Assembly (NCBI GenBank): GCA_003024175.1
Contig: MDYQ01000497.1
Span: 9,659 to 73,658 of the forward strand
Direction of reading: 5' to 3'
Source: Planoprotostelium fungivorum
Taxonomy: Eukaryota; Evosea; Variosea; Cavosteliida; Cavosteliaceae
Length of the DNA: 64,000 nt
Position numbers and translations under genes: made by a program
The notes under the pieces: generated by a model
Seen by the model: only the letters and a program-made list of their open reading frames with translations
What the model was told of the DNA's origin: nothing
The model's database searches: none
Part shown: positions 1 to 30,392 of the stretch, piece by piece
Layout of the letters: every line of letters starts with the position of its first letter
How positions within the stretch are numbered: position 1 is the stretch's first letter

Positions 1-3000
1 GAGATTGTGATTGAGATTGTGATTTCGAGAAGAATTACGCGAAACTAGACGGGGGAGCTATGGTTTATCTGACGCCCAGTACGTACGAGGTGAGACATCA
101 GAAGAGATAAATCATTCAGAGGAGGACAGAACATCAGCATAGATGGCTGTCGATGCATGGAGAACGTAGCGCAGAATGGAGGATGCATTCATTTTCAAGT
201 GTTCAACCTGACGAAAGCACTCACAATCGAGGCCAAGGTGAGATCACGTGATCGTACAGCTGGACTGAGGATGACAGATCACGAATACGGAGATGTCTAA
301 AAATAGAGCGTATGGTGGTCTGGGTGGTGCTCTATACCTTTCGAATCAAGCTAAAAATAGCTTCATCATAAGAGTGGGTCAGGATGAAGAGTATGAGGAT
401 TGAAGAGTGCGAAGGGATCATATTTCATGGAAAATTCTGGACAATTAGGTGGAGCTATCAGCATCAACACAGCGACAAGTGTAGAGATATAGTATGTAAT
501 ACGTACAGATAATCCACTGAGACACCTACAGCGATTGTGTGTTTGATCGCAACGAAGCAGAAGAAGACGGAGGTGAACATACACCATGTACGTTTGTCTG
601 TCTGAAAGATGAACAGGAGGTATTCGATCACAGAGCACGTCAGGAGGTGAGAGAGAAGAAGAGAGAGAAGGAAAGTGACAGAGAGACAGAGAAGAGAGAA
701 GAAGAGCAGCTGATGAAGATCAGTGGCAGCAAGTTTGAGGGCAACAGAGCGAGCAACGGAAGCGCCATCTCTGTTGGCAGCTCAGTCTATTCTGATGGCT
801 TAGCGCATCTATTCAATTTCTGGATAGGTGGCGTGTCATACGGTGATATAACAGGTATGATCCATGATGTGCTCTTGATGACTCATTTATAGTAGAGGAT
901 CCTGGTCCAAATCGAATCGAAATCTCGAGTACAAGCTTTTATGGTAATTCAGACGATGAAGGTGAATATTTATCGAGACTGAAACGCTGATGGAATGATG
1001 ACGGTCGACAGAATCACATATTCTGTGCATACGATCAGGCAAGCAAGGCAGTACAGTCATCAACGACACCCTCATCACTTCATCGAGCGAGGACAGAAAG
1101 AGAGGAGAAGAGAGAGAAGAGAGAGCACGAGTGATGTGCAGTGGCGATGTGTGGCTGGACAGAGTGGACATGAGAGGCAGCATAGAGATGACACAGGGGT
1201 CGCTGAGTATGAGAGAATCAAATGTTAGTCTGATCATATTATACAACGGAACGAGATTTATGGGTGAGACATGATGTGTTAAATGACGATGATGATGACG
1301 TGAGAACAGAAGAAGGAAGTGAGAGTGTGGTGACATGTCACGATGAAGGACAGAGAGCAGTAAGAAAGAGTACAGAATGGTGAGAGCGGCGAAGATGGAA
1401 ACAAAACTGAAGAGAGAACAGGGAGTGTGATGAGAAGCAAGTGTCATGGTTAGGTGAGGGCGATTGAGGTCGATGAATAGAAAAGGAATAACATGGAATA
1501 GCACAAGAGATGTCCAATAGAGGGATAATTGGCATTTGGAGCGTAGCCGTCCTCCTATCTCTTCTGTTCGTCTTCATCGTAACACTAGGGACAATCTACA
1601 GTATCAGACCGAAGAAGACCAGATCGCCATCAGTGATCCAAGATATCAGTGTTGGTGCTGCTCAGAGGTGATCGAACATCTCGAATTAACGCGATGTGAC
1701 GTGGTACAGATCACTGATCGATTTCAACGAATTAGAGAATCTGAAAGAGGTAATCGAGACGAGAAGATTGATGTTGAATAGAGAACAGATTGGAAGTGGT
1801 GACTTCGGGATAGTCAGTCGAGCAGAATGGAGGCAGACGGCCGTTGCTGTACGTTTCCTCTCTCGAATAAGAAGTCTGACAGACATAAGGTGAAACAGAT
1901 CAAGACACAAGAGGCTACAGAAGAGCAGATGAGAGGATTCTTACGAGAAGTGGTCATACTGCAGAGATTGAGAGCGCATCCAGTGAGTGATGATAGAAGA
2001 AGGAGAGAATGACAGAGACAGAACGTGGTGATGTACATAGGTTTCTGCTTTCCACCTCAGCCTCTAGCTCTTGTCACGTGAGTTAAAAAATGCACAAACA
2101 TAACCGATTTATGATGACCAGGGAATATTGTGAGGGAGGATCACTGGAAGGTGAAGAATATTTCGTGTAGTTTCTGGATTGATCAAAGATTCAGCGTATT
2201 TGCGAAGAAATCATCACACCATCACAGAAGAACAGATGCGTCAGTTCATCGAGGGCATAGGTGTGTTTCTGTCGGTGTCAGAGATATCTGATGGATGAAC
2301 TATGACACAGCGCTTGGACTTCTGCATCTTCACTCAGAAAAGGTACAGTCAACACAGTGACCGAACGAGAAGACTGACACAGAAGCAGGTGATACACAGA
2401 GACTTGGCCACAAGAAACGTGAGAGACAGAGAAGAAGAAAGAGAAAGAGACTGACAGCAGAGACAGATACTGCTGAACAAGCACATGGAACCAAAGCTGT
2501 CTGACTTTGGTGAGAGATGATGGGATGAAGGGAAAAGAAAGCTGACGAGAGAAAGGAATGTCACGAGAGCAGATCACAGGCGAGTATGTGGGACACACAG
2601 CAACTCATGTGGGACCGCTGAAGTGGATGTCGCCAGAAGGTGTGTATACAGTTCTGAGTTTAGTGTACAAGAAAGAAGCTGAGAGAGATGGACAGCGATC
2701 AGCAGAAGAGAGTACAGCACAAAGAGTGACGGTGAGCTCTCATCATATGCATACATGTCTGTATGTAGAGGAGAAGAAGAGGAGAGAAAGATGACAAGAA
2801 GACAGTGTGGAGTTTTGGCGTAGTGATGTGGGAGATAGCGTCAAGAGGCAGAATACCCTATCCTGAGCTGTCAGCGGTAGAAGTGGCGATAGGCATCACA
2901 ACGAAAGGAGTGAGGCTGCGCATACCGCCAGGCACAGATGCAGTGCTGTACAAGCTGATGATAGGTGAGACAGAGAAACAGAGAGGAGATAGAAGAAAGA

Positions 3001-3165
3001 AGAGAGAAGGAAGCTGACAGAAGAGCAGAATGCTGGCAGACAGAGGCAGAGGACAGGCCAAGCATACAAGACATCTGTGGTACGCTCGGCATCATAGACC
3101 GGATGAGAAGTGATGATGAGGTCAGTCTACGAAAAGAGTTGAATGATGTAAGAATGAGAAATTAA
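1..3165 (+). CDS. Receptor-like kinase with beta-helix ectodomain, copy 1 (5' end outside window)
   Basis: The visible part starts inside the beta-helix ectodomain (a segment with KLDGGAMVYLTPSTYE) and runs to a stop at 3163-3165. A transmembrane segment lies at about 1511-1610, starting near MSNRGIIGIWSVAVLL and followed by the basic stretch RPKKTRSPSVIQD. The kinase domain starts near 1770 with the glycine loop GSGDFGIV. Spliced in frame it contains HRDLATRN, then DFG, then GPLKWMSPE, STKSDVWSFG and AECWQTEAEDRPS. HRDLATRN plus GPLKWM are the catalytic-loop and P+1-loop signatures of tyrosine kinases rather than of serine/threonine kinases (family knowledge). At least ten short GTGAG introns interrupt it. 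AATAAA follows at 3172-3177. The kinase half is almost identical, introns included, to copy 2. The ligand is unknown; tyrosine specificity is inferred. Confidence 0.85.
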
Positions 3166-3271
3166 CTCGGGAATAAATAATTGACTCCCATATTTATTGT
3201 TGTTACCGTTAAGTGACATGCACCCTTTGTCATAAAAAGACACAGACTAAGGTCTCATCTTCGGGCGAGAG
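3166..3271 (+). promoter_or_regulatory. Short intergenic spacer: 3' end signal of copy 1 and conserved proximal promoter of copy 2
   Basis: Only 106 bp separate two genes. AATAAA at 3172-3177 is the likely poly(A) signal of copy 1. The last 40 bases before the ATG contain an AAGACACAG...CATCTT block that recurs immediately upstream of copy 3 (about 9380-9413) and leads into the same ATGATCAGATG start context. The conservation suggests a shared proximal promoter or 5' UTR element; no known factor site was recognised. Confidence 0.5.
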
Positions 3272-6200
3272 ATGATCAGATGGTCTGTGATCTTTCTTCT
3301 TTATCTTCCATTCTTGGTTCAAGTATCTCGGACTGCAATTGTTGACCGTTCGAGATGTAGAGCTCAGGCAGTCGAAGGTGGAACTGTATATGACCTACAA
3401 TTGTTATGTCAGTGAGTCTGATTATTATGAATCACATCACATCGTTGATATGACTTCAGAATCAGATCAACACCATTACATTTCAGAATTGAGGGAATCG
3501 CGAACCTGAATGTCTCTTTTTCTCCTTGTGGAACACTGTCAGCACCAGACTGGTGTAGAGGAGCCACATTGTGTATACCTGGTCTCATTGCAGCTCCACA
3601 GTCTTCTATTCGAGCCACCTTAGATTTCACCGCCTTGGAAGAGACAGGATTCAGACAGACACCAAACATCTTATTCGCTTTCGACGGTGGTCCCTCCTTC
3701 TTCCAACTCTTTCTTTTCTGCTCTGCTGACGACTCAGAGAGAGAACAGTGCACGGTGAGAGATCTGATCTTCTTTGAACATCACCCCTCAACATCGATTG
3801 GCCGTTCTACATGTTGACATTCACTGCAGATTTCCTCTCGTAACGACCGGTTGATCATCCTCTGTCATCTCTATCTCAACTGCGATCAAATTCACCCAGA
3901 CACCCTCCCCTCGATTCATCTTGACGATACCTCTGAATCGTTTCAACAACGCCATGAGGCATCTACTCCGACGAAGACTTCCATCATCCGTCGTGATGTG
4001 ACAGAACCGGATGATGTGTTGGTGACATTCAATGCCACAAAAGATAATTGGGTCGAAGGTAAGAGACGAGAGCAACCCCAAAATTGAAGATACACTAGTG
4101 TTGAAGAAGGTTGAGAGGACGGAATCAAACGTCACCATCATCACCTTCGAAGATGGTACAGAGATTGAATGCAAGTCGGGCGTGCAACCTTTCCAATTCC
4201 ACAGAAGGAGAGAGAGGATCGAGCTGAACGGCAGAGCCATCATCAGAAGATGCGAGATTGATTTTGAAGAACAGAGTCAAGTGAGGTCATCCGTGATTTC
4301 ACCTCGTGATCATGAGACAGATCGTGTGGACCGATGTGACATTACACGATTTTAAATTAGACACCGCTGGCGTTAGATTTTTGAACGTGGAGAATTCAAT
4401 ATTCGTCAAGGGGAGGGGTATTCTAGGTGAACAGCTTGTATTCTATTACGTTTTATATTCACGAGCGACAGAGAGCGGGATATTCAATTCGTTCAACTTG
4501 ACCATGAAGAACACCACGTTGGAGAAGAGTAATTTCCTCGCTCGAGATTGTTCCATCGATATGAGCTCATGCCGTATGAATCATTCGGCCATCTTTGCGT
4601 TATCCAATATCGGCAACACTCATCACGTCTTACAATTGAATCATATCTCTTCCTCCGTCTTGCACATGAATCACAGTGGCCACGCGAGTACCTTCATCCA
4701 CAATTTGACCGAGAACTTCATTCAAGATACGAAGATCGTGGTCGACCATATCGGCTGCTGCAGTTCTGTCAATTGGCTTCATAACGAGTGAGTCGGAATC
4801 GATCGTAGAGATCATGTTGAATGATGAGATGTAATACAAAGGATCTGTTCTGTACTCATCATTGGAAGGTTCGCCGGCAATTCAATTCCGCAGATACAGA
4901 CGCACGGTGCCGACTTTGACGGATACGCAACTGCATCCCAAGCTGTCTGCATGTTATTGAACAACACGATGAACATCACCGGTAGCACAAGTATGGTCCC
5001 GATGGTTACGATCATGTCCGGCGATGTCATGGCTAGAGAGAATCACATACGGGTGATGTAGGTGTCTCTTGATCTCGAGCTGAATGTTTCAGATCATAAA
5101 TCAAACGGATCAAGTCATCTTCTATGTGATGGAAGGACAGTTGAACAGTCAGAATAACACGTGGGTGTATTGTTTGATGAAATGTAAACGATCTCCAGTT
5201 ACGACATGACAGCCACTCCCCTCACTGCTGGATACGTATCACATCTTTATTCCCAGGGTGACAGGTATCACATCACGAGAATATTATCTTTCTGACAGTA
5301 ATAGATTCAGACGCTGCAATCTGTGTATCGATGCAACTCCAGTGATCGACATCACAGTCATCGATGATCATTTTTCAAACTGTGGAATCGGCATCAATGG
5401 TCGCATCATCCACGTCATCAACTCTACTTTCACGGACAATATTGTCGGAGTGACCAGCTCTGGACCACTGACAATCGAGTGAGTTGTACATCGTCCAATT
5501 GGTTGTTGTTGAAAAGATGAAACAGAAAAAGTTATTTCAGAAACAATACGGTGTACGCAGTAGTTTCCACGATGCGGCCAGTTCATCAAGACGAGAGCGT
5601 ACATGTGAGGTTGATAAATAGCACGTTCGAAGGTCATAATGGCAATATGACTGCTGTGGATATCACCTCAAGCGAATCTTTCATTCACATCGAGAATTGT
5701 CGGTGAGTCTTGATGAAGAAGATGAAACGTGATGCGAATAGGTTCAATCACAATCGAGGGAAAAACGCGGGGGCCATAAAAATCGAATCAGAGAATCCGT
5801 CGAATCTCGAAATCGTGAATTCGATCTTCGTAAAAAATTTTGCCAGTCTCACAGGTGAGCGTGTTGTAGATGAGCGTCCCTGAATCATGATGAAGGAGGT
5901 GCTATCACTCTCACCGGAACATTTCAGTCGATCGATATGGTGGGATGCTGACGTCATCCATCGTCATCTTCTCATCGATTTATCATCAGATCAATACCAC
6001 CATGCATCGCAATCAAGCCATGATCGAAGGAGGAGCCATCAGCATGGATGCTACCGTTGAGATGTACACCATCACAGACAGCAAGTTGACGCAGAACTGG
6101 AGTGGAATGACAGGAGGAGCCATGACAGTAGGACAAGTGACGAAGAAGATGAAGATGGAGAGAGTGAGGGTAGAAGAGAACATAGCTCTTCTCACGGGTG

Positions 6201-9200
6201 GTGGTCTGGCATTCAAGCAGCCCATCACAGAATTAGAGATGATAGAGTCTGAATGGATGAACAACCGAGCGAAACTGAACGGAGGCGCTATGGTTTATCT
6301 ACCACCCAGTATGTACGAGGTGAGTGTCTTAAGGAGAAAATAAGATGACGTCGGCAGAACATCATCATAGATGGCTGTCGATGCAATGGAAACTCAGCCC
6401 AGAACGGAGGGTGCATCCATTTCGAAGTGTTCAACAATACGGAGATGCGAGCTATATCCATCATGAATGCGACGGTGAGAAATGAATTAGATAGGTGTAC
6501 TGACAAGGATAGATAACAGATACGGAGATGATGAATAATAGCGCTCGAGGAGGAATGGGAGGAGCCATCTCGATCTCCAATGAAGGAAGAGATCGATTCA
6601 TCATTCAGGTAGACGAGTGACATGAATCGATAAGAACTGATCCAAGACGAAGCGAGTCAATTTCACCGAGAATGAGGGGATGTTAGGTGGAGCTATCAGC
6701 AGAGAGATATAGTACGTCATACATCGAATTCGGCACAAATTATCGAATCATCTGAACAATGTGCAGTAATTCTGTATTTGATCGCAACGGATTAGAAGAT
6801 GATGGATGTGGACCTCAGGGCACATCACAAGGTGATGAAAGAGATCAGCAGAGAAATAACGCAGAAACAGAGGGAGAAGAAGAGCAGTACATGATGATCG
6901 ACGAGAGTCGGTTCATTCATAACAGAGCGACCAATGGAAGCTCCATCTCGATCGGTATATCTTTGCATTCAGACGGTTTAGAACATTTCATGGAATACAC
7001 GTCATCGAGCGATAACACAGGTGAATAATTCTTGTTATTCTCAGCCATTCATCGACCACCAGACATCGGCTTCAATCGACTCGAGATATCGTCATCTACT
7101 TTTCACGACCATTTATATGATGAAGGTGAATGTAATGAATGAGTGGAAAAATGATCGAATGATAGATTCACACATCATATGGATAAGATCAGGCAAGCAA
7201 GGTAGTACAGTCATCAACGACACCCTCATCGCATCATCGAGCAAGGACAGAAAGAGAGGAGAAGAGAGAGAAGAGAGAGCACGAGTGATGTGCAGTGGCG
7301 ATGTGTGGCTGGACAGAGTGGACATGAGAGGCAGCATAGAGATGACACAGGGAAGGCTGACGATGAGAGAGTCGAACGTGAGCACAGTGATACTGTACAA
7401 CGGAACGAGGCTAGAGAGTGAGATGCATGCAGAGATAGATGACATGATGACATGAGAACAGAAGAAGAGAGTGAGGGTGCAGTGCGATGTTACGATGAAG
7501 GACAGAGAGCAGTGAGAAAGAACACAGAATGGTGAGGATGATGGAGAGATGGAGCCAAAGCTGAAGAGAGAACAGGGAATGTGATGAAAAACAAATATCA
7601 TGGATGGGTGAGAAAATGGAAGAAAGGAAGCTAATGACCGAGAATAGTGCAAGAAATGTCGAGCGAAGGATTGATCAGCATCCTGATCGTGGCTGTGGTC
7701 GTTTCCATCCTCTTCTTATCGATCATCACCATAGGAACGACATACAGTATCAGGTCGAATTCATTCATGAGAATCAAATCACCTTCTATGATACAAGATG
7801 CCACCATTGGTGCCGCTCAGAGGTAAAGACATGATGACGCATTCATTAACATTTCATAGATCCTTGATTGATTTCAATGAATTAGAAAATCTGAAAGAGG
7901 TGACGATGAATTGGAAGAAGGAGAAATAATTGAGGAACAGATTGGGAGTGGTGATTTTGGTGTGGTCAGCCGAGCAGAATGGAGACAAGTTTCTGTAGCT
8001 GTGAGTTATCTCTTCCAATTGATCGTTGAAAGAAAGCAGGTGAAACAGATCAAGACACAACAAGTGACCGAAGGGCAAATGAAAAGTTTCTTACGAGAAG
8101 TGGTCATCCTACAGAGACTGAGAGCGCATCCAGTGAGTGATGATAGAAGGAGAGAGAATGACAGAGACAGAACGTGGTGATGTACATAGGGTTCTGCTTT
8201 CCACCTCAGCCTCTCTCGCTCATTACGTGAGCTATTTTGAAAGATGTTTCGTTGATAAAATATTTCCAGAGAATACTGTGAGGGGGGGTCTCTTTATCGT
8301 AAGTGTCAGAAATAATCCAACTCTGATATCTAATGTCTCATAGATTATTTAAGAGAACATCAAGAAGCAATCACAGATGGACAAATGCGTCGATTTATAG
8401 AAGGAATAGGTGATACAATCCTTCTGAAATTTCGCGCATGCACATGGCTGATACGTGGTTACAGCGCTTGGACTTCTGCATCTTCACTCTGAAAAGGTAC
8501 AGCCACCGCAGAGACAGAACGAGAAGACTGACAGAAGCAGGTGATACACAGAGACTTGGCCACAAGAAACGTGAGAGACAGAGAAGAAGAAAGAGAAAGA
8601 GACTGACAGCAGAGACAGATACTGCTGAACAAGCACATGGAACCAAAGCTGTCCGATTTTGGTAAGAGATGATGGGATGAAGAGAGACGAAAGCTGACGA
8701 GAGAAAGGAATGTCACGAGAGCAGATCACAGGCGAGTATGTGGGACACACAGCAACTCATGTGGGACCGCTGAAGTGGATGTCGCCAGAAGGTGTGAAGT
8801 GCATGTTGAATGACGTCAGGAAAGCTGAGAGAGATGGACAGCGATCAGCAGAAGAGAGTACAGCACAAAGAGTGACGGTGAGCGCACATATATACACATG
8901 TGTATCGAAGAGAAGAAGAAGAGAGAAAGATGACAAGAAGACAGTGTGGAGTTTTGGCGTAGTGATGTGGGAGATAGCGTCAAGAGGCAGAATACCCTAT
9001 CCTGAGCTGTCAGCGGTAGAAGTGGCGATCGGCATCACAACGAAAGGAGTGCGACTGCGCATACCGCCAGGCACAGATGCAGTGCTGTACAAGCTGATGA
9101 TAGGTGAGACAGACAGAAAGAGAAGGAGAAGAGAGGAGATAGAAGAAAGAAGAGAGAAGAAAGCTGACAGAAAAGCAGAGTGCTGGCAGACAGAGGCAGA

Positions 9201-9306
9201 GGACAGGCCAAGCATAAGAGACATCTGTTGTACGCTCGGCATCATAGACCGAATGAGAAATGATGAACGAGGTTTGAGGATTCTGATCGATGAGATGGGC
9301 GTGTGA
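3272..9306 (+). CDS. Receptor-like kinase with beta-helix ectodomain, copy 2 (complete)
   Basis: The chosen start is the ATG at 3272, which opens a signal peptide (MIRWSVIFLLYLPFLVQVS). A Cys-rich N-terminal domain follows (about 3480-3760; SPCGTL, FQLFLFCSADD). The ectodomain to about 7450 is a series of short beta-strand-like repeats with GGAIS, GGAMT, GGGLA and many N-glycosylation motifs, typical of right-handed parallel beta-helices (pectin-lyase/Pmp-like). A transmembrane helix at 7655-7745 (SILIVAVVVSILFLSIITIG) precedes a basic juxtamembrane segment (SPSMIQDATIGAAQR). The kinase has GSGDFGVV, VAVKQIKTQ across an intron, VIHRDLATRN, LSDFG, activation-loop Tyr in ITGEYVGH, GPLKWMSPE, DVWSFGVVMWEI and ECWQTEAEDRPS. 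All catalytic residues appear present. The predicted role is a cell-surface receptor tyrosine kinase; the ligand is unknown. Confidence 0.9.
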
Positions 9307-9413: not shown

Positions 9414-12400
9414 ATGATCAGATGCTCGATTATTTGCTTCATTCTTCTCATCTGTTTGAACGAAACACTACAGAGTGTGACTCCTTTTGACCCGAGATGT
9501 AGAGCTCAGGCATACGGAATCACGTACGACCTCTGGACGCTGCATCGGTAAGATGATTTGATCCATTCACACACCAGAATCGTGCACTCATATGATTACA
9601 GAACAATTCCATTACTGTTTGAACTCCAGGGAAATGCAAACCAGACCGTTTCTTTTCTCCCTTGTGGCTCACTGTCTGCACCAAATTCATGTCAAGGATC
9701 GACTTTCTGCGTACCAGGCTTGGCATCGGCACCACTTTCTTCAATTCGAGCCAGTCTAGACTGGAGTGCGTTAGAAGAGACAGATTATAGTCAGAAACCG
9801 AACATGTCTTTCATCTTTGAGGGCAGAAACTCTCTCTTCCAACTTTTCCTCTTCTGTTCTGACGATGAAAAGATGCCACAGTGCACGGTGAGAGATTGAA
9901 TTTTTCAATCTCACATCAAAGTGTGCTGCTCTCCAAATTCACCATTACATCAGATCTCCCATAACAACAAAGATGTGATCATCCTCTGTGAACTCTATCT
10001 CGACTGCAACCTCTTCAACAACTCCAAACACATCCACCAACATGAGCCGCTGGATGCATTCCCAGTCGACACCTCGATGATCCAAGAGACAGAGATCTAC
10101 ACCCAACCTCGAGCCATGGTGTCATCAGAAGTTCTGATTGTCAACATCACGATGGATAATTGGATCGAAGGTGATGATGATGATTCGAAGGAGACTGAAA
10201 GAGGCGACAGCACTGGAGAAGCTGAACCGATCCAAGCCCAATGTCGTTTTGGTCTTCGAGGCAGGAATGGCTGTGGATTGTGGAACCAATGAGACATACG
10301 ATCAGCTCTTCACTTTTCTTCGAAAGAGTGATAGGATCGAATTGAGAGGAGCAGCGAAGATCACAGGGTGTTATATCTTTTTCAGTCATTGCCAACAGGT
10401 GATCGTGTTCCGTCATCATCTTTCAACATCTACAACTGATCATCATCGTTTGCAGGTCGTGTTGACCGATATGACATTCTACAACACCTCCATGCTCATC
10501 AATGACTCGGACACCTTCTACATCCAACAAGTTACATTCACCGACAGCGTCATCCGTGTCAAAGAAGTCATAGATACTCACTACCATTCCAACACATTCT
10601 CCGCGAAAAATTCAACTCTAGTCCGAACGAACGTGGAAGCATTGGATCACTCCTTGACCATGTCACTATGCCACACGATCGATTCCTATTTCTCCGTGAA
10701 CTCCTCCCGGAATACGAATCATAATCTGAAAGATAACAAATTCTCTTCCACCCGATTCAACATGATTCACATCAGCGTTAAGCTCGCTGATCAATTTCAT
10801 CACGACCTCATCTCCAACTGGATGAATGATGTTCAAATGAATGTGGATTGCCAAGGTCCATATAATAACATCAACTGGTCTGACAATATGTGAGAGTCGA
10901 GGCCCTCAAAAGTTCGGCTGACGTCACACATTTCAGGTTTACGGGTGATTCACTTCCAATGGTCAGCATGAGGAACCCCAAGGACCTCACATCACGTCAA
11001 ATCAAATCAGACCGAATTTCGCAATTCATTATGACCGACAATACTGTGATCATCAGTGGGATGAACACTACAGCAAAGACCGAGATCTACGTCGATGACG
11101 GCCTCATATATTTGCAAAATAATCACATGAACGTGAGAATCGTGATATGTGGGACTGAATTTCTCAACGCCTTAGATTCAAACGACCGCTGAACTTCTAT
11201 TTTCGATATCACATGGTTCATTGGATAGTTTGAACAACGTGTGAGTATCACTCGTGTATATATCTGTATCTTCATCATGACGATTCGAGATAGATACAAT
11301 CGAAGTATCACGTTACGAGGTGCCGATGCAGGAAAGATCTCATCGAACGGAGATCAGTGAGAGACCAAAAGAAGAGCCCATCAGCTGACGAGAAAAAGAT
11401 TCATCGATTCTAAATATGTATCGTGTATCCACGCAGCATCGGCAGACTGCACGATCCGCATCGAGGATGGTCTGTTCTCTGATAATGGTATGGCAGTCAA
11501 TGGTTATTCGATCTCCGTCATTCATTCTTCCTTCATCAACAACATCAATGGGGTGATAGCTACCGATCGAGATCTGTACATATCGTGAGAATTCTGAAGA
11601 TCTGCATGTAAGATGATTCAATGAGCGATAGTGGATGTCATTTCGAGGGCCACATGGGGAATACAGTCAAATGGCAAAATTTGAAACGATCCGATCAGTG
11701 TACATTCCACAATACTACCTTCAGGAATAACAACGGTATAACCACCATCGATATCACGAGTATCGATGCAGATATTAACATCAGCAGTTGTCGGTGAGCC
11801 TTTTCATCCGATTCCATCTTGATACGTGTGTTCAGATTCATCTCCAATGACGCTACGAAGACGGGAACATTGAAAATCACATCCCACATCAACGGCAAAG
11901 TCTCCATTCTAAATTCTATCTTCGAAGACAATCGATCCACTTATGCAGGTGATGATATATATGGTACATGTTTCCATGATTCAATCCTGCAGGTGGTGCA
12001 GTCACCTTCTCCGGGCTCTTTCTATCGTTGGATGTGGTGAGATCACATAGTCATGCAGCGTCATTCTTCATCTGAACCACATGAAGATCAATACGTCCAT
12101 GCATCGTAACCGAGCAATGAGCGAAGGAGGAGCCATCAACATGGATGCCACTGCAGAAACGTTCACCATCGTGGAGAGTAATTTCACACAGAACTGGAGT
12201 GGAATGATGGGAGGTGCCATGACAGTGGGAGAAGTGACAGAGACGATGAAGATGGAGAGAGTGAGGATAGAAGAGAACGTAGCTCTTCTCACGGGTGGTG
12301 GTCTGGCTTTCGCGATGCCAATCAATGAATTGGAGATGGTAGACTCTCATTTCATCAAGAACCATGCAAATCTCAACGGAGGTGCTATGAATTATCTACC

Positions 12401-15400
12401 ACCCAGCCTGTGCGAGGTGAAATGTGGGAAGAAAGAGACGAGGAGAATGACGTTAGGTAGAACATTCTTATCGACAGCTGTCACTGTATCATGAACGTAG
12501 CTCAGAACGGGGGTTGTATCTACTTTGAAGTGTACAATGGTATATTTGAAGATGAGACGCCCATCATGAATACCACGGTGAGAGAATGAAATTTCATGCA
12601 TTGACGAAAACAGATAACGAACACGGAGATAAGGAATAACATCGCACGCGGTGGAATGGGAGGAGCTCTCTACATCTCAAATCAAGTCAGAGATCGATTC
12701 TTCATGAAGGTGAGAGAGCGTTTCATGCCCTTTCTGATCGACGAAAGGGAAACCACTTCACAGGAAACAAGGGCAAATATGGGGGAGCCATCAGCGTAGA
12801 CTCATCCATTGAGATCGAGATCGAGTGGGTCATTCATGTCTGTCTCATCCACTCATTGATACACAGGAATTCTGTATTTGGAAACAACGAAGCGGAAGAG
12901 AATGGAGGTGATTGTGTGACTTATCTGAGTCTGACTGAACGTGAACAGGCGGCATTCGATATCAGAGAATTTTTGAAGGTGAGAGATTCGAAGAGAGGAG
13001 GAATAACATAGAGATAGAGAGACAACACATGAAGATCAGTAACACCCAATTTATGGGAAATAGAGCTAAAAATGGAAGTTCCATATTCACAGACACCTCC
13101 GTTCTACCAAGGTATCCCATCGATGATTCGGTAGACAGAATGACAAGTATGATCTTTCCTCTCTCTTTCAAGTCATCTGGAGATGCACCAGACGACATCC
13201 ATTACAACGGAATCGAGATCATAAGCACCGAATTTCATAATATATCGGATAATCAAGGTAAATCACTCCACAATGACCAAGCGATGATAAGAATTAGGAT
13301 CTCACGTGATATGGATACGATCAGGCGAGCAGGACAGTACATTGTTTAGAAACTCCCTTATCACATCATCGAGCGAGGACAGAAAGAGAGGAGAAGAGAG
13401 AGAAGAGAGAGCAAGAGTGATGTGCAGTGGCGATGTGTGGCTGGACAGAGTGGACATGAGAGGCAGCATAGAGATGACACAGGGAAGGCTGACGATGAGA
13501 GAATCGAACGTGAGCACAGTGATACTGTACAACGGAACGAGGGTAGAGAGTGAGATGCATGCAGAGATAGATGAGATGATGACATGAGAAACAACAGAAG
13601 AAGAGAGTGAGAGTGTGGTGACATGTTATGATGAAGGACAGAGAGCAGTGAGAAAGAACACGGAATGGTGAGAGATGATGGAGAGATGGAGACAAAGCTG
13701 AAGAGAGAACAGGGAATGCGATGAAAAGCAGATATCATGGATGGGTGAGATATCATGGATTTAGAAAATGAAAAAAAGAAGGTGATGACCGAGAACAGTG
13801 CAAGAGATGTCGAGCGAAGGATTGATCGCCATACTGATCTCAGCTGTACTTTTGTCTCTCTTGCTTCTCTCCATCATTATAGGCGCATTGGTCATCAGCA
13901 TAGGACCGAAGAAGACAAGATCACCATCAGTGATACAGGACGTCAGCATCGGTGCCGCTCAGAGGTGAAACACTTCAAACCGTTCAATCGATGACGTGGC
14001 GTAGGTCTCTCATTGATTNGACAGTACATTGTTTAGAAACTCCCTTATCACATCATCGAGCGAGGACAGAAAGAGAGGAGAAGAGAGAGAAGAGAGAGCA
14101 AGAGTGATGTGCAGTGGCGATGTGTGGCTGGACAGAGTGGACATGAGAGGCAGCATAGAGATGACACAGGGAAGGCTGACGATGAGAGAGTCGAACGTGA
14201 GCACAGTGATACTGTACAACGGAACGAGGCTAGAGAGTGAGATGCATGCAGAGATAGATGACATGATGACGTGAGAACAGAAGAAGGAAGTGAGAGTGTG
14301 GTGACATGTCATGATGAAGGACAGAGAGCAGTGAGAAAGAACACAGAATGGTGAGGATGATGGAGAGATGGAGACAAAACTGAAGAGAGAATAGGGAGTG
14401 CGATGAAAAACAAATATCATGGATGGGTGAGGAGATAAAGATAGGAAGAGAATGACTGAGAACAGTGAAAGAGATGTCGAAGGAGGGATTGATCGCCATA
14501 CTGATCTCAGCTGTTCTCTTTTTTCTCATGCTTCTCTCCATCATTATAGGCGCATTGGTAATCAGCATAGGACCGAAGAAGACAAGATCACCATCAGTGA
14601 TACAGGACGTCAGCATCGGTGCCGCTCAGAGGTGAAACATTACGAAACAGTTCAATTGATGATGTGGCGTAGGTCTCTGATTGATTTCAATGAATTCGAA
14701 GACATGCAAGAGGTGGGAGAAATAGAAGAGATCATCAAATGACGGCGAGTAGATTGGAACTGGTGACTTTGGTGTGGTCAGTCTGGCACAATGGAGGCAG
14801 ATGTCTGTTGCTGTGAGTGTTACCATATGTGAATAGCGGAATTGAAGAGAGAGCAGGTGAAACAGATCAAGACACAACAAGTGACCGAACAACAGACGAG
14901 GGAATTCTTACGAGAAGTGGTCATACTGCAGAGATTGAGACCTCATCCGGTGAGTGATGATAGAAGAAGGAGAGAGAGTGACAGAGAGATAGAACGTGGT
15001 GATGTACATAGGCTTCTGCTTTCCACCTCAGCCTCTATCACTCGTCACGTGAGATGAAGGAAATTTGTCATGAACGACTGATTTATGATAACAGTGAATA
15101 CTGTGAAGGGGGATCCCTGTATCGTGAGTTGAACTATCGAACACATGATCATGAACTGCAGATTACCTGAGGGAAAATCGAGAGACAACGACGGAGGGCC
15201 AAATCAGGCAGTTCATAGAAGGAATAGGTGAGTTCATTACATTTTGATCGTGATGAAATGAAATTGATGGTGAATGCAGCGCTTGGACTTCTGCATCTTC
15301 ACTCAGAAAAGGTACAGTCACCACAGTGACAGAACGAAAAGACTGACACAAAGCAGGTGATACACAGAGACTTGGCCACAAGAAACGTGAGAGACAGAGA

Positions 15401-16098
15401 AGAAGAAAGAGAAAGAGACTGACAGCAGAGACAGATACTGCTGAACAAGCACATGGAGCCAAAGCTGTCTGACTTTGGTAAGAGATGATGGGAGGAAGGG
15501 AAAAGAAAGCTGACGAGAGAAAGGAATGTCACGAGAGCAGATCACAGGAGAATATGCAGGACAAACAGCGTCATTCGTGGGACCACTGAAATGGATGTCG
15601 CCAGAAGGTACGTCCACTTTATTTCACGATCGGAATCTTTTTTTGAAAGAATTGCACAGCGATCGGCAGAAGAGAGTACAGCACAAAGAGTGACGGTGAG
15701 TCCACAGACAAAATACTGAGTAAGAGAAATGACAGAAGACAGTGTGGAGTTTTGGAGTTGTCATGTGGGAGATTGTATCGAAAGGTGCAACACCCTATCC
15801 TGAGCTGTCAGCGGTAGAGGTGGCGATAGGCATCACGACAAAAGGAGTGCGACTGCGCATACCGCCAGGCACAGATGCAGTGCTGTACAAGCTGATGATA
15901 GGTGAGACAGACAGAAAGAGAAGGAGGAGGCAGGATAACAGAGAAACAGAATGTTGGCAGACAGAGACGAAAGACAGACCGAGCATAGGAGAGATCTGTG
16001 ATACCCTCGGTATCTACAACCAGGCACCAAGAGCGCGTACAAAGAGTGTCAGGACACAGATGGACGATTCAGAAGCTTTGCTTCTCTCGTTCGAATGA
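9414..16098 (+). CDS. Receptor-like kinase with beta-helix ectodomain, copy 3 (contains an assembly gap)
   Basis: Starts at the ATG at 9414 with a signal peptide (MIRCSIICFILLICLNETLQ), then a Cys-rich N-domain (LPCGSLSAPNSC, FQLFLFCSDD) and a long beta-helix ectodomain (EGGAINMDATAE, GGAMTVGEV, LLTGGGLAFAMP). The membrane segment appears twice (about 13820-13900 and 14490-14570) because 13333-14018 is nearly repeated at 14020-14686 around a single N; a real gene would be expected to have one. The kinase includes EYCEGGSL, HRDLATRN, LSDFG, activation-loop Tyr in GEYAGQ, GPLKWMSPE, VWSFGVVMWEI and ECWQTETKDRPS. The C-tail differs from copies 1 and 2 and ends at TGA 16096-16098, 77 bp from the stop of the convergent histidine kinase gene. 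Confidence 0.85.
13333..14686 (+). repeat. Near-duplicate ~670-bp segments flanking a single N (14019)
   Basis: Segment A (13333-14018) and segment B (14020-14686) start with the same GACAGTACATTGTTTAG and end with the same GGCGTAGGTCTCTxATTGATT. They are highly similar but not identical: small substitutions and indels lie around 13550-13610 versus 14237-14290, and near 13850 versus 14515. The lone N exactly at the junction looks like a scaffold join of two overlapping or allelic contigs. A true tandem duplication cannot be excluded. The segment covers the end of the ectodomain and the transmembrane exon of receptor copy 3. Confidence 0.85.
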
Positions 16099-16175
16099 TA
16101 AAGGATGCATCTGTTTCTGAACAAAAACATTCCAAACTCGTTCGTCTATTCTCTCATATCGTACACTTTGATGCT

Positions 16176-22100: not shown

Positions 22101-23885
22101 CTCAATCGAGTGATAGCTTCGATAAGGTCAAGGAAAGCGAGGCGAAATCGATTCGTCTGCTCCGATGGGCCTACCGTGGGCAACGGTGGTGGATTTCCCA
22201 AGAGATGGGCGGCTGTCACGTTCAGCCTGGGTGAAGCTATAAATAGAACAAGCTGTCATCACCTTCGGGGATGAAATCGACGATCACTCGGATTCGGAGG
22301 CCGAGAGCTTCGGTCAGGGTGGCGTGCCACATGGCTACCCTCTCGTCTGATTCCTAGTTATAGATCAGTCTGCCGCCGGACAATGTCGTGTCCTCTCACC
22401 ATCAGTGCGGTGCGACAGAATTGTCGAAGGGCCTGCTGTAATACGCTGTAAGGTATACCTCGCTTCATTTGGTCTGCTTTTCCCGAGATGAAATAGCCTC
22501 CTTCTTTCACGAGAGGCTTGTGGATCTCTTGGATCAAAACGGTCTTACCGGTACCCGAGTACCCTTTGAAATTTAAATTTCGAAACGGGCGGGAACTCAC
22601 CCGCCACGGTGACCAGCCTCGCCGTGTTCTGTTCCCTTGTCGTATTGAACGAGTGAATGAGCTTGGAAATTTCCTTATCTCTTCCGTATAATTTCTTGGA
22701 AACGAGAAAGACAGACTTGGAGTCCATCTGTCCCACGGGAAACGCAGGCACGTGGCCCACCGCGATGTCATCGATACATTTTTGCAGGTCGTAGATGATG
22801 CCCGCACCGCTCTGATATCTCTCCTCTGCATTCTTTGCGATGAGCTTGCTGATGATGGCAGACATGATCTGTGGCTGCATCTCGTTCAGACATCGTCATC
22901 ATCATGGTCATTCGGAGATGGTGAAGAGGATGAGATCGCACCAGATCATCGATGACGGTGTGGATGGGGGGAGGGCTGATGGCGATGTGATGATACATCA
23001 TCTTGTTCGTGTCTCCTTCTTCGACGACTTCGCTGCCAGTCAACAGATAATAGAAGATGAGACCCAACGTGTAGTAGTCGCTTCGGTAATCGACGTCTTG
23101 GTTAGTCTTACCAGTTTGCTCTGTGATTTCCTTCGTCAGCGGTCGCAGGTTACGTGTGATGGAAATAATGAAGATGATGGATCACCTGGTGAGATCCATC
23201 GGTAGTGGCCAGCCAAACTGCGGACGTATTCACCAGTGGCCGACCTCTTCTTGAAGGCAGAGCTGGCGCTGAAGTCGATGATGCGAACTGTTTTGCCCTC
23301 TCGGTTAATTATAATGTGCTGTTTCTGGTGAGTAACCATAGTCCTCGAGTATATGCCCTCACCTCTGGGCATAAATTGTGGTGGGTGACACCTCTCTGAT
23401 GAACGGAATCTGTTTGATTTGAGATTGGATCGTGAATGGAGACGCACCTATCGCTAGAACCATCTGAACGGCGAGGGGGAGGAATTCTAGGAGAGATAAT
23501 CTTCCGATCTATAGACATGAGAACAGAGAACGGCATCGCGTTACCTTAGTCAGATTGCACCCCCTGAAATCGTCCATCTTGAGTGCACCAGTCCCTTGGT
23601 AGTTCAGCATCTCGTGAAAAGCTAAAACGTAGGGACACCCCTCCAGTAACTGCGCTCCGGTCAACCATATCGCATTATCTAGGAACATTTCACCCTCAAA
23701 ATCTCTATCTCTTTGTTGTATTTCTTCATACAGAACGCCTTGAAGAACTCTTGCGGTGCTTTGATCAGAAAGCTCCTTTGGAGATTATCATCTACATTCC
23801 GCAAAATGACGGAGTGCTTTCCATCGTGTACCACCTCTATACACGATCCTGGTGCACTCTTCGAGGAGATGGAGCGCGAGGACAT
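16176..23885 (-). CDS. Hybrid histidine kinase: pseudokinase-AAA ATPase-helical repeats-GAF-HisKA-HATPase-receiver
   Basis: Starts at the ATG complementary to 23883-23885 and ends at 16176. Domains in order: a protein-kinase-like domain (23885-22780) with EIEILRLLEG, VTHHNLCPE in place of the HRDLKPEN loop, and RIIDFS in place of DFG; an AAA/ORC-type ATPase with Walker A GYSGTGKT (about 22560) and Walker B LILFLDDLQWADSST (about 22090-22000); a long helical-repeat region (21000-18660; e.g. LFQEAAKDAELNGFLQ); a GAF domain (18250-17750; SILCIPILRNGILRG); HisKA with CHELRNPLNG (about 17540); HATPase with INLTANAVKF, DTGIGM and GGSGLGL; and a receiver with MDIEMPIMDG and ITKPF. This order matches fungal Mak2/Mak3-type and bacterial sensors (family knowledge). 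The histidine-kinase half looks active; the N-terminal kinase looks catalytically dead. About 20 small introns. The input signal is unknown. Confidence 0.9.
21326..21402. repeat. 11-bp minisatellite inside an intron of the hybrid histidine kinase
   Basis: Seven perfect tandem copies of GATGTTGATGT fill 21326-21402, with a degenerate eighth following. The array lies between exons encoding LSPKTQE and MLSVAAAIGEQF, in an intron that is longer than its neighbours. The 11-bp period is not a multiple of three, as expected for a non-coding array. Confidence 0.9.
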
Positions 23886-24061
23886 GTATGAGCTCCCGTC
23901 TTGTTAATAGTAATAGATTATCAAAACAGGAAACTCCGGTCCGCTTTTTGGGGGCACTTAATAGACCAAGGTCGAAGTTTCGCGTAAAAATAGGAGAAAA
24001 TCGGACAGCTCTTAGACTCACAACACACATACGCACGTCAGTCATGCTGCGTCCCTATTAT

Positions 24062-27000
24062 TCATTCATCGTCATCGAGTGGTATCATCTGACTCAGATG
24101 AGGGCTGGAAGGTGTGGAGTCCACTCGTCTCTCCGTCGGACCCTCTTCTGATCGTCTGACGCTGGTGGACAGTCCCAGCGCATCACACACATCACGTATG
24201 TTCGGTCGATCTTCCGGCTCTGTCTGCCAGCATTCTATCTCCATCACCTTCTCTTACTCTCTCTCTTCGTCTCACCTATCATCAGCTTGTACAGCGCTGC
24301 GTCTGTGCCTGGCGGTATACGCAGTCTCAGTCCTTTGGAAGTGACACCGATGGCTGCTTCCACTGCAGACAGATCGGAATAAGGTGTCTTGCCTCGTGAC
24401 GCGATCTCCCACATCACGACACCAAAACTCCATACTGTTATCGTGTCATTTTCTCTTATTCTTCGTATTCTGCCGGTACTGTCTGTGGACTCACCGTCAC
24501 TCTTGGTGCTGTACTCTCTTCTGCTGATCGCTGTAAATCTCGCTTAGCTTTTTTATGCCAAAGATCTGTTCTCACCTTCAGGTGCCATCCATTTCAGTGG
24601 TCCAACGTGTGATGACGTCTGTGAAGGTGACTCCACGTTGATCTGCTCTCTCGACATTCCTGATTTCACGTGAATTTCGTTGTGTGGTCAATCTCACCGA
24701 AATCGGACACTTTGGGCTCCATGTGCTTGCTCAACAATATCTGTCTCTGTCAGTCTCTCTCCTCTCGTTTTGCCTCACATTTCTTGAAGCTAAATCTCTG
24801 TGGATCACCTATCTTGATTATTTTCTATTCGACATGACAGATGGGAATTCTTCATCCTCACCTTTTCTGAATGAAGGTGTAGCAGACCCAATGCTATCAT
24901 TCGATTTAATCTTCAATGTTGATCATGTCATCAGATTTACCTATTCCTTCGACAAATTTACGCAGTTGATGGTCGGTCGCAGATTCAGGGTTCTTCTTCA
25001 GATATTCTATTTCCAATTTTAATTCTCACACTTCACGATTCTGCTCACCGTACAGGCTCCCACCTTCACAGTACTCTCTGTTTTCATTCAGATCTCAAAG
25101 ACTTCTCATCTACTCACGTGACAAGAGCTAGAGGCTGAGGTGGAAAGCAGAACCCTATATACATCACCACGTTCTGTCTCTCTGTCATTCTCTCTCCTTC
25201 TATCGTCACTCACTGGATGTGATCTCAGTCTCTGTAGGATGACCACTTCTTGTAAGAACCCCTTCACTTGCGCCTCCGTCACTTCTTCCGTCTTAATCTG
25301 TTTCACCTATTGCTATCTCTCAATTCTGAACGATTCCATGATCATGAACGTACCGCGACGGAAACTTGTCTCCACTTCGCTCGACTGACTACACCGAAAC
25401 CTCCACGACCGATCTACACTTCATCAGCTGAATTCTCACCATCAATGTGGATCGTCACCTCCTTCAAGTGTTCAAATTCGTTGAAATCGATGAGAGATCT
25501 GTTCATCGTATTTCATCATCGATTCGTTCATGTCTTTCACCTCTGAGCGGCACCGATGCTGATGTCTTGTATGACTGATGGTGATCTTGTCTTCTTCTTT
25601 CTCTTACTCATGAAAGCAGCAAAGAGAATGACAGAGAGAAATAGAACCGAGAGGAGAACAGCGGTGACGAGTAAGACAGTCATTCCTCGCTTAGACATGT
25701 CCTTCACTGCATTACGTTAAGATCAGACGAGTAAATCGATGATCACCTATCCAGGTCACTTGTTTGACATCACATCTCCTGATCTTCATCAGGTTTTCTA
25801 TGATGAAAGTAAGACCTCACCATGTGTTGTTCTTTTTCACGATCGCTTGATCATCGTCGATGCAATTCACATTCATCGGATCATTCTCATCATCTGATGG
25901 ATGAGTCATCGACAATTCGTCTCACATCGAATACCATACCTACAAATCTGGCCCCATCACACAATATCACTGATTTAACGCTCGATCTTCTCATCGTTAA
26001 CGTTCCTTGTGTCATCTCTATGCTGCCTCTGATGCCCACTCTGTCCAGCCACACATCGCCACTGCACATCATTCTTGTTCTCTCTTCTCTCTCTTCTCCT
26101 CTCTTTCTGTCCTTACTCGATGATGTGATGAGAGTATCGTTCATCGTGATTCCTCCACTTCCGTTGATGTAAATCGATATTGTGTCGGGACCTTCATGAC
26201 GTCACACATCACCACAGCATCAATTCACCTTGCGTGGCTGAATCATATTGAAGATAAACGTGCGAAATATGCATGGTGTTCTCATCGCCGAGGTCTGTTC
26301 GGTTCGATGAGAAGATTCATTCGATATCGTGAATCCATCGTTTGCATATAGAATGACGTTCCAGAATGAATCATAGTGTGGAACAAATCATGAGCGGAAC
26401 TTACCGGCAGATATCGCACTGGAATTGAGAGGGGAACCAGAAACGATGGAAGAATTCGATACGTGTACCGAATAGTGGGGACGGAGGTGACTCACAGACA
26501 GACAGGCTCCCACCTTCGCCTCATTCCTCTCGAATTGCGTGCCATCGATTCGTAGAGAAACTTCTCTGCCCTCTACATCTGATGTGGCGTCATCATCATG
26601 GTCAAATCGATGTGAAGAGTCATCCGTGATGATTGAATCGACGATGAATCGATGATTGTACCTGATACGAGGTTTCGGACTCGAATGGCACCTGATCATC
26701 AGATCAATCGTCGATGTCGATTCATCTCATCACCTCCATCGTCTTCGGATATATTATCATCGAATCTCGAGTCACTGATGATGAATCAATGAAAGGCGAC
26801 AGCGATCATGAGAGGAACGTGAGATGAAAAGATGAATCACTCGATTTCTACGCTCGTTGTGGAATCAATCGATACGGCTCCCCCTGATCTGCCAGAATTT
26901 TCTGAGAAGATCATCCCCTATTTTCATTTCATCTTCTCCTCTTCCGTTACGACTCACTCTCATATCCAATCGATCCCTCTTACGGTTCAACATATAAATA

Positions 27001-30000
27001 GCTCCTCCAGAACCTCCATCAGCTCTATTTTTAGACATCACCGTGTTCGTAATCTGCTCGCATGGTGAGGCTGAAAGTCAGGGATATATGCTATCAATAT
27101 TTACCGTAGCAATCATGGCTTTCACTTCAGTTGCATTGTAGATCTGGAAATGCAAACATCCACCATTCTGTGCGATATTTCCCACGCAAACGCAACGATC
27201 CACTATCATCGTCTGCTACTATTCAGCATTCCCCCACGTACCGTACGCACCTCATACGTACTGGGAGGTAGAAACATCACGGCACCTCCGTCCAATCTCG
27301 CCGTGTTTTCGATCAAGTGACAGCCCTTCAGATTGACGTTTCTGACTGGCATATCAAATACAATAGCACCACCGGCCAACAGAGCCTCGTTCCTCTCCAT
27401 TCGAATGGATTCCATCGTGAAATTTCCCGTAATTTTGCCCACCGTAAGGGCACCTCCCGTGACTCCACTCCAATTCTCCGTGAAATTTCCACTCGAAAGA
27501 TTGTAATCTTCCACGGTGGCATCCATACTGATGGCTCCTCCTTCGCTCATGGCTCGATTGCGATGCATGGTGATGTTGATCTGATGTGATGAGTCACGTG
27601 ATGGATGAGATGGATTCACGATGTCGATCTGTTTGTACACTCCGGTGATGTAAATCGCTCCACCTGTCCTTCACGTCAATCACAAAAGATCGATTGATGT
27701 GAATGAGATGATTGATACGGTTGAATGACTCACCCCTCGTCTGTGATTCGTTATCAGTGAACACCGTATCCACCATCGACATCGTCGATGAGATCGTGGA
27801 ATCGACCTTCAACCCTCCACCCTGCGGACTGATGTTGTCCGAAAATCTGCACCGTCTCGTTCGATAATCTTCCTTCATCCTCTCACCTGCAGCCAGATAT
27901 TTTGATATCTGCGTTCGTGAACGATAAATCGACGGTGGAGGTCAATCGATCGGCGATGTGATGTCTGATCGATGTGTCTGTCATGGTGAATGTAGATTGA
28001 TTCTCTCCCTTGTTGATGCGTCTCCTCATCGCTTGGATGTTATCTTCAAAGGTACACCCTCTGTGACGGGTGAATACGTAACGTACGTATGAGTCATCTC
28101 ACTGGATGGCGATCGTGGTAGAAGCGCTATCGATTCCGACACCATTTCGGCTAAATTTTCCATTGCTGATACGCAAATTTCCTTCTCCTTGTACACCAAA
28201 AGAACTGTCATGGAAACTCGTGCCCAACGATGTGAATTGTGCTCTCGATGCTATGAGAATGCAAGTACTGCAGCCAGAGAATCTGTCTATTGTTCAACGC
28301 GATAAAAATGAGATGAAAATCTCACGTGTCTCCGTACGATGTGATGGGACTTATAAAGGCTCGAAAACCGATGGAATTGATCATCTCGTAACTACGAGTG
28401 AATCGATGGACATGGTAAATGACTCACCGATTGCTCTTGCTTACTACAAACATAGAAAAGATAGAACAGAAGAAGAAATTGAACGTCGTACTCTCATCAC
28501 GACTCGGATAACCGTTGATCTGGCGATTAGATTAAATCGTCGATGAGATGTTGATTTCACTCTGATGTCATTGTTCCAGATGTTGATGTGTGTACCAACT
28601 TGGCTCATCTGAAAGATTACTCTCGTAGAGTTGATGATTGGAGTGATGTCGACCTTGTTTGATAATATGGTGACGTAGGATTCTAAAAATGCCATACTCA
28701 AATCACATTGAGCATGCAAGAGTGGCACGGATGCACCCATCATCCTGTGCACACGTCATCATCATGATCGACATCATGATCGTCATCATGATCATCATCA
28801 CGACTCACTTGTTGTAAGACCAAGTCAATATTTCACTTCCTATACATATCTCACAAGTGAACCTACTGTTCTCTAATGTGTTACCCGTGAAGACGTGAGA
28901 TCCACTCCTGATCTTCGAATCTGAAACGATCGTTACGTTAGATTGCTCCGAGATCGTATTGTTCCACAGATACGATGAAGTGTTGAGCTGAGAGTTCGAT
29001 TCAAAGTGACATCGAACGAGGGAAGACAGGGAGACATTAACGTGGGCCTCTGATGTTGAGATGTTTGCATCAGAGAAAGAAGATCCAATCACGTCGAAGG
29101 TAAATGTCTCGTTGTTCTTACCACCTGTGAAGGTGAAATTCCGTGGAAGATTGAGTGAACGTTCTCACCGAAGGTAGAATGGACGAGATGAAATTTCGTG
29201 CGTTGGATGATCACGTGACTTGACTCCGTGACGAACATTTTCCCGCCTTCGATCTCGAGGTCGTTCACGACGATCTGTCTTTACGTCAATCTACATCGTT
29301 GTAGATGGGTCCACTCACTCTCTCCTGGTGATCAAAGTGAAGATCACAATTTTTGATGATAGCACCACCTCTCGATGAAAATTCAACCTTGTCTCTCTGT
29401 TGACTGAAAGAAAACGGCCGAATATTCAGGCCCGTACAATCATACGTTCCATCTTCAAAATGAAGAATGACGTCCACGTTCACCCTCTCCACGCTCATCA
29501 TGACTGATCGCTCGTCAGTCATCACATCCTCTCATCTCTTCTCACCGCCCAGCCAATTTTCGGAATTTAGATTGAAGGTGAGTTCACCCACGTAGGCTCG
29601 ACTCGTGATCGGATTCTTCATGTATTCCACACGAATCTGTCCCTTTTCTCCTTCTAATCGAAAGTTGAACTTGGATTCAGCGATCGTGTGTTCGATGGGA
29701 TCGATCTCTCGATCGTTGATGACGATGCGATCGATGCCCGGCACGTTGTGGCCTTGCAATTGGAAGATGTCTTCGGAGAGGTGAACGGCGCGGTAGATGA
29801 TGGGGTGATCGAACAGTTGACAACCGACAAAGATCCAGCATGAGATGGTGTGATACGATGTCACCTTTTGGAGATCAACTCTAACAAGTGCACGAGTGAA
29901 TGGATGTCACTCACCAGACAATTGTCTCTTGGGTACGATTCATCTGGTTTCACACAGCAGATGAAGAGTTGAAAGAGGGTGTTTGTATCGTTGAAAGTGA

Positions 30001-30392
30001 AGGAGAAATTCGGTGTTGGGCCAAAATCGTTCGTGTAGTTGGCGTAAGATTGGATCGAAGACAGAGGAGCTGATGCAAAATTGGGAAGGCAGATGGTAGA
30101 GCCAGCGCATGATGGTTCGTGTTGTGGACCGATCGTACCACAAGGTGCGAAGAGGACAGACGACTGGTCCTCCAACGATCCATTAAGCGATATGGACATC
30201 GATCTGCAGATGATCGTCAGTTGCTGCATATACACTATCGATATACCTAGTTAACATTTGCAGGTCATAGATCTTTCCATCTGTCCCCTCAGCTCTACAT
30301 CTGGGATCATCGATGCGAAAGCCGAAGTCAGTCGATTGTAGGGAATGAGTGATAGAAATGGTCCATAATAAGACGAGTGTCCAGGGAAGCAT
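24062..30392 (-). CDS. Receptor-like kinase with beta-helix ectodomain, copy 4 (inverted)
   Basis: The start is the ATG complementary to 30390-30392, with signal peptide MLPWTLVLLWTISITHSLQS. A Cys-rich N-domain follows (FAPCGTIGPQHEPSC, LFQLFICCVKPDE; 30200-29900). The beta-helix ectodomain runs to about 25900 (EGGAISMDATVE, GGALTVGK, LLAGGAIVF). A transmembrane helix lies near 25690-25600 (VLLVTAVLLSVLFLSVILFA), then KKKTRSPSVIQDISIGAAQR. The kinase has VIHRDLASRN (about 24815), DFG, GPLKWMAPE, WSFGVVMWEIAS and IECWQTEPEDRPN, ending at 24062. The activation loop reads SREQINVESPSQTSSHVG, without the Tyr present in copies 2 and 3. It is the most diverged copy. It begins 115 bp from an initiator tRNA gene transcribed in the same direction. 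Confidence 0.88.

Follow-up and report, generated by a model that had tools for sequence, protein, structure and literature searches.

Large repertoires of receptor tyrosine kinases are generally associated with animals and choanoflagellates. The 64,000-nucleotide stretch of Planoprotostelium fungivorum DNA analysed here (C444:9659-73658, hereafter the window) carries four loci where ectodomain exons are followed by kinase exons with tyrosine-kinase (TK) motifs, which raises the question of what kind of receptor these genes encode and how far the family extends. We propose, with a probability of roughly 0.6, that they encode single-pass receptors with a Pmp-like beta-helix outside the cell, a kinase that probably phosphorylates tyrosine, and a diverged ectodomain that would bind surface ligands.

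Four receptor-kinase loci in the window

Genes were modelled by homology-guided spliced alignment and, separately, by an ab initio run of a self-trained gene finder, which returned short introns (median 47 bases) with GTGAG as the commonest donor. We identified four receptor-kinase loci in the window, three on the forward strand (kinase motifs at 2395-2638, 8547-8790 and 15363-15606) and one on the reverse strand (24577-24802) (Table 1). The guided models of copies 2, 3 and 4 run from a signal peptide through a long ectodomain of 1,023-1,057 modelled residues to a transmembrane (TM) segment and a kinase. In copies 2 and 3, a hydropathy scan of the models located a hydrophobic window at residues 1-19; the start of copy 4, MLPWTLVLLWTISITHS, fell below the scan threshold. 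The same scan found a single TM window in each of the four models, that of copy 3 skipping a second TM exon. The juxtamembrane segment is short, at 23-28 residues in copies 1, 2 and 4 and in a relative on contig C137. The 9658 bases preceding the window are N, leaving the 5' half of copy 1 unreadable, and the four-copy architecture described in the earlier note therefore holds for copies 2-4 and lacks a readable 5' half in copy 1.

Table 1. Modelled features of the receptor-kinase region (window positions)
Feature	Position	Strand	Basis
Copy 1 (G1), 5' part missing	1..3165	+	spliced homology model, stop at 3165
Copy 1: ectodomain end, TM exon, kinase exons	TM 1502-1667; kinase 1710-3165	+	homology model
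Copy 2 (G2), complete, 35 exons, 1398 aa	3272..9306	+	homology model
Copy 2: signal peptide, ectodomain, TM exon, kinase exons	TM 7648-7822; kinase 7860-9306	+	homology model
Copy 2: core of 28-residue GG[AGCS] repeats, approximate	5896..6616	+	spacing, shuffles
Copy 2: single repeat exon, 110 aa of core	5990-6319	+	
Copy 3 (G3): signal peptide, ectodomain	9414..16098	+	homology model
Copy 3: TM exons, kinase exons	TM 13799-13964 and 14466-14631; kinase 14673-16098	+	homology model
Copy 3: 690-bp direct duplication, 92% identical	13333-14018 / 14020-14686	+	junction at the N (14019)
Hybrid gene between copies 3 and 4	16014-23729	-	gene model
Copy 4 (G4): signal peptide, ectodomain	24062..30392	-	guided model 30392-24062; ab initio 23958-30257
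Copy 4: TM exon, kinase exons	TM 25541-25706; kinase 25498-24062	-	homology model
Copy 4: repeat exon	27251..27580	-	

Whether ectodomain and kinase belong to one gene was judged from the ab initio models. Copy 4 was called as one gene from ectodomain through kinase, without a signal peptide. The C137 relative, of which nearly everything is present as far as the contig reaches and whose guided model has a signal-peptide-like start, was likewise called as one gene without a signal peptide. In copies 1 and 2 the run instead placed a gene boundary at the membrane region, which separates the ectodomain from the kinase, and copy 3 was absent from the ab initio gene list. We set aside the possibility of separate genes, against which the undivided C137 gene speaks and for which the split copies 1 and 2 speak. 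The fusion that had been claimed thus stands in the ab initio models of copy 4 and the C137 relative and is broken in those of copies 1 and 2. Guided models predict a single-pass receptor kinase encoded in one gene for copy 2, copy 4 and the C137 relative, each presumably expressed as a single transcript. All 13 intron positions in the kinase (alignment columns 1250-1494) are common to five models, a sharing that is biased because the models are homology-guided.

Evolution and integrity of the copies

Comparison of copies 3, 4 and the C137 relative with copy 2 gave 81-97% identity in the kinase (alignment columns 1300-1500) and 12-33% per 100-column block in the ectodomain (columns 200-700). 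Kinase dN/dS was 0.083-0.176 across six pairs, which shows constraint and not adaptive diversification. Values for the beta-helix core were 0.189-0.382 across three pairs, two of them near saturation, and in the N-terminal halves of the ectodomain synonymous sites were saturated (pS 0.74-0.78). The adaptive diversification suggested by the earlier note consequently finds no backing, the kinases being constrained (0.08-0.18) and the N-terminal halves saturated. Kinase pS among copies 1-3 was merely 0.28-0.39 while that of the N-terminal halves of copies 2 and 3 was 0.78, which suggests that the 3' parts of the copies underwent gene conversion or recent exchange.

The duplication in copy 3 bears on the quality of the assembly. 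The only N of the window, position 14019, lies at its junction, which is probably a scaffold join; copy 3 is possibly two paralogs joined at this point. The duplication carries the second TM exon, and the guided model omits parts of it. We consider it about an even bet that the cluster is partly an artefact, with copy 3 mis-joined and some copies being pseudogenes or collapsed paralogs: the lone N sits between flanks that are 92% identical, and N also lies upstream of copy 1, whereas copies 2 and 4 have complete open models and the low kinase dN/dS is that of constrained sequence.

The ectodomain contains Pmp-like repeats

The ectodomain core is built of GG[AGCS] repeats about every 28 residues, with spacings that begin 28, 28, 28, 28, 29, 33 in copies 2 and 3. 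The observed number of motif pairs 26-30 residues apart was reached by 0 of 2000 shuffles in each of three ectodomains, and the observed number of motifs by 3, 0 and 0 of 2000, respectively. This periodicity confirms the GG-repeat ectodomain described in the earlier note. Its likeness to Pmp repeats, also claimed at that stage, is clear in one copy: the copy 4 ectodomain matched PF02415 of Pfam (E 1.7e-14; 52.8 bits, cut-off 20.6) and TIGR01376 of NCBIfam (6.8e-14; 50.9 bits, cut-off 15). Below the cut-offs were copy 3 against PF02415 (E 6; 7.9 bits against 20.6) and a 280-residue piece of copy 2 against TIGR01376 (E 0.026; 14.4 bits against 15), and whole copy 2 had no Pfam Pmp-repeat match at E up to 0.1.

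Sequence searches of the PDB returned chance-level matches, namely one for the copy 4 ectodomain (a moesin homologue, E 0.14) and one for a profile of the N-terminal domain (E 2.7). Because no solved structure matches beyond chance, we infer the beta-helix fold from the repeats. We found no support for reading the cysteines of the N-terminal domain as those of an MRH domain.

Compared with chlamydial Pmp proteins (PF02415/TIGR01376), the ectodomains share the repeat motif, which exceeds the cut-off in copy 4 and in two relatives elsewhere in the genome (L028 and L026), here at 28-residue spacing. The window genes differ in being spliced and eukaryotic, with a TM segment and a kinase. The autotransporter barrel is missing among the Pfam matches of whole copy 2 (E up to 0.1), which comprise kinase or kinase-like families only. 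Searches for relatives of the repeat exon confirmed 0 of 63 pattern matches in prokaryote genome contigs and 0 of 7 in viral contigs; for the kinase, 0 of 27 pattern matches in viral contigs were confirmed.

The kinase carries tyrosine-kinase motifs

All four copies retain the catalytic Lys, Glu, HRD and DFG, and the copy 2 kinase matched PF07714 of Pfam at 1.7e-71. The motifs reported in the earlier note were recovered in full, with HRDLATRN in the three forward copies, HRDLASRN in the reverse copy and GPLKWM(S/A)PE at all four loci. An HRDL[AR]..N-type catalytic loop together with a (K/R)W..PE P+1 loop is what we take to be the signature of the TK group, and all four copies carry both. Copy 4 is without an activation-loop tyrosine. 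The C-terminal tails are short: those of copies 1, 2 and 4 contain no tyrosine, and that of copy 3 contains a single one close to the end of the kinase. Docking sites would thus lie mostly elsewhere.

Sequence comparison with the PDB gave different nearest neighbours for different members of the family. The copy 2 kinase matched 2229 sequences at 1e-10, and every one of the best 60 of the 2229 was a tyrosine kinase; EGFR, in first place, owed its rank to matches in two domains. Among the 60 matches listed for the L028 kinase, Eph receptors were best (152.5 bits), with CTR1 at 133.3 and B-Raf at 130.9. The kinase of L025, a receptor with leucine-rich-repeat-like (LRR) sequence, also preferred Eph receptors. 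The L022 kinase preferred CTR1 (154.1 bits), then B-Raf; among its 60 listed matches the TKs were a Src-Abl ancestor and an EGFR record whose score adds up two domains, the rest being CTR1, B-Raf and TNNI3K.

We then placed the kinases in trees with four TK references (EGFR, BMX, BTK and EphA3) and three TKL references (CTR1, B-Raf and Roco4), several of the rows being partial. In a 29-row tree of all columns, 14 kinases of this genome (13 with HRDLA and one with HRDMA) formed a clade with the animal TKs (96/92; bootstrap 96%), and the opposite side held CTR1, B-Raf, Roco4 and four HRDLK kinases of the same genome. Within the clade, the LRR receptors L023 and L025 were sister to the animal TKs (100/96), and the remaining 12 kinases formed a weak group (82/65). 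A 25-row tree that omits the long-branch rows L019, L029, L020 and L006 retained the joint clade (95/90; bootstrap 95%), and the AU test on its full columns did not reject the 12-member group on the TKL side (p 0.105). When 18 motif columns were removed, the 12-member group became a branch of its own (97/96) outside the TKs, and the AU test left both placements unrejected, with p 0.291 for the TK side and 0.302 for the TKL side. L023 and L025 remained with the animal TKs without these columns (94/94).

The TK-group placement of the receptor kinases therefore rests largely on the motif columns, and their tyrosine specificity is a prediction from motifs. In the phylogenetic check proposed earlier, the kinases grouped with TKs when all columns were used and lost the joint placement without the motif columns; nor did the AU test set the kinases firmly inside TKL. 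TKL kinases such as CTR1, B-Raf and Roco4 are close in sequence, and CTR1 and B-Raf are the best matches of L022 apart from the two-domain EGFR record, but the TKL references used read HRDL(K/R)..N and the receptor kinases read HRDLA.RN. It is in our view unlikely that these are receptor-like TKL kinases that gained TK-like catalytic and P+1 motifs independently, by convergence outside the TK group. Convergence would fit the separate 12-member branch, the AU values on the TKL side and the preference of L022 for CTR1 and B-Raf; it sits poorly with the all-column trees, with the uniformly TK best matches of copy 2 and with a TK side that is equally unrejected without the motif columns.

The family extends across the genome

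We searched the 36.9-Mb genome, in 471 contigs, for the catalytic-loop and P+1-loop motifs, counting sites and not verified genes. For the lineage of the genome, a search with ribosomal protein uL4 gave closely spaced top scores for different records (457 to 437 bits over about the first 20). HRDLAxRN was encoded at 143 sites (0 for the reversed-pattern control), GP.(K/R)WM at 118 (control 0) and the Lys-type HRD.K..N at 156 (control 3). GP.(K/R)WM lay at most 450 bases downstream in 69 of the 100 HRDLAxRN sites listed. Kinase matches with similar scores occur on separate contigs, such as C128/C225 and C143/C168, and these counts may therefore be too high if some contigs are duplicates or alleles of others.

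Beta-helix matches were collected with the copy 2 core as query (61 rows) and with PF02415 (16 rows). After 11 rows of C444 had been dropped, the remainder merged into 39 loci, again not verified genes; 30 of these, on contigs 1-299, the range covered by the list of HRDLAxRN sites, were tested and the nine on later contigs were excluded. A TK motif lay on the same strand at most 5 kb downstream in 22 of the 30 and was missing from this position in 8. The other side and strand classes held 3, 1 and 0 loci, a bias (22 of 26) with a binomial p of 2.9e-10. These 22 loci rule out a purely local family, and what had looked like a local cluster of four belongs to a genome-wide set of TK-motif kinases, part of which has beta-helix-like receptor ectodomains. 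The models of L028 and L026 have the order beta-helix, TM and kinase, without a signal peptide. Reader and eraser domains exist in the same genome, with 79 SH2 and 43 PTP exon matches.

Several further loci carry other ectodomains. Outside the window, L014:577-3636 (C444:114235-117294) is modelled as a GH18 ectodomain (PF00704, 2.6e-28) followed by a TM segment and a kinase with HRDLAARN and GPLKHMAPE. Its GH18 catalytic acids look replaced when compared by eye with the catalytic motif, and the gene is a possible chitin sensor. Among the GH18 loci on contigs 1-299, 4 of 20 had an HRDLAxRN site at most 5 kb downstream, a count that is too low because the exon-wise search missed the C444 GH18-kinase gene. 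L025:141-5068 is modelled as LRR-like sequence (by eye), TM and kinase. A further long receptor-kinase copy, L010/L011, begins at about C444:83632 and was, by eye, fused by the gene finder with the next, LIM-like gene; its ectodomain had zero Pfam matches at E up to 0.01.

The existence of relatives with GH18 ectodomains makes glycan recognition by the beta-helix more plausible. It also bears on whether the ectodomain is instead an adhesin or a wall- or matrix-binding module whose kinase reports adhesion or mechanical load, and not soluble or microbial ligands. The matched repeat takes its name from surface proteins of the outer membrane, chlamydial Pmps act in adhesion (PMC2997323), and the ectodomains of copies 2-4 each hold 23-25 N-glycosylation sequons, all of which would suit an adhesin; the GH18 relatives point to carbohydrate ligands, and we hold the adhesin reading to be rather doubtful.

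The surroundings of the receptors include other signalling genes. The reverse-strand gene between copies 3 and 4 combines protein kinase, AAA_16, GAF, histidine kinase and response regulator domains, a layout similar to that of fungal group X histidine kinases. Its model and that of copy 3 share 85 bases where copy 3 ends, which means that one of the two ends is wrong. Among the gene models near the receptors we also recognised, by eye, one cyclase-like and two histidine-kinase-like genes (47611-50738 and 57279-62685, reverse strand).

A proposed model for receptor function and its relation to known systems

In our proposal of single-pass receptors, the N-terminal domain and the beta-helix of Pmp-like repeats would lie outside the cell, linked by one membrane helix and the short juxtamembrane segment to a kinase inside that probably phosphorylates tyrosine. 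The diverged ectodomain would most likely bind ligands on the surface of prey, of microbes or of neighbouring cells. Ligand binding may cluster the receptors, the clustered kinases would trans-phosphorylate, and SH2 proteins of the same genome may read the signal.

Predicted tyrosine kinases outside animals have precedents. Physarum polycephalum has 4 predicted TKs, 3 of them with a single TM segment (PMC4758236), and 22 PTKs are described for Acanthamoeba castellanii, along with 48 SH2 proteins (PMC4053784). A holozoan study placed divergent pre-opisthokont tyrosine kinases, amoebozoan ones included, apart from the holozoan clade (PMC8662651). The present genome resembles Acanthamoeba and Physarum in having such kinases and differs in its many more motif sites (143 HRDLAxRN, as sites and not verified genes) and in the Pmp-like ectodomain, which goes unmentioned for those TKs in the available parts of the sources. 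Metazoan and choanoflagellate receptor tyrosine kinases have the same predicted order of signal peptide, ectodomain, single TM segment and kinase, with HRDLA.RN and (K/R)WM.PE. In contrast to these receptors, the kinases described here branch outside the four animal TKs used, their tails are short and nearly tyrosine-free, and their Pfam matches include no animal-type ectodomain. Our literature search, covering titles and the beginnings of abstracts, found no report of a beta-helix receptor-kinase family, and we regard its novelty as provisional.

In this one unicellular genome, TK-type catalytic-loop sites (143) nearly equal Lys-type sites (156), and some of the former sit in loci whose ectodomain is of the GH18 type or carries a bacterial-type repeat. 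Surface sensing by animal-style receptor kinases may thus have expanded separately outside animals. It becomes possible to test whether tyrosine specificity had a single origin and whether such receptors serve in the recognition of prey outside animals. The most interesting point is the position of the kinases relative to TK and TKL. As a tentative extension, which we find conceivable but do not favour, they may form a deep-branching lineage of receptor kinases specific for tyrosine, which arose at the TK/TKL split or independently of it and expanded to about a hundred or more genes, with modular ectodomains that act as a pattern-recognition repertoire. If true, the ectodomain set would comprise the Pmp-like beta-helix, GH18 domains with their catalytic acids lost, and leucine-rich repeats. 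It would constitute a recognition repertoire for the surfaces of prey or partners, parallel to and separate from animal receptor tyrosine kinases.
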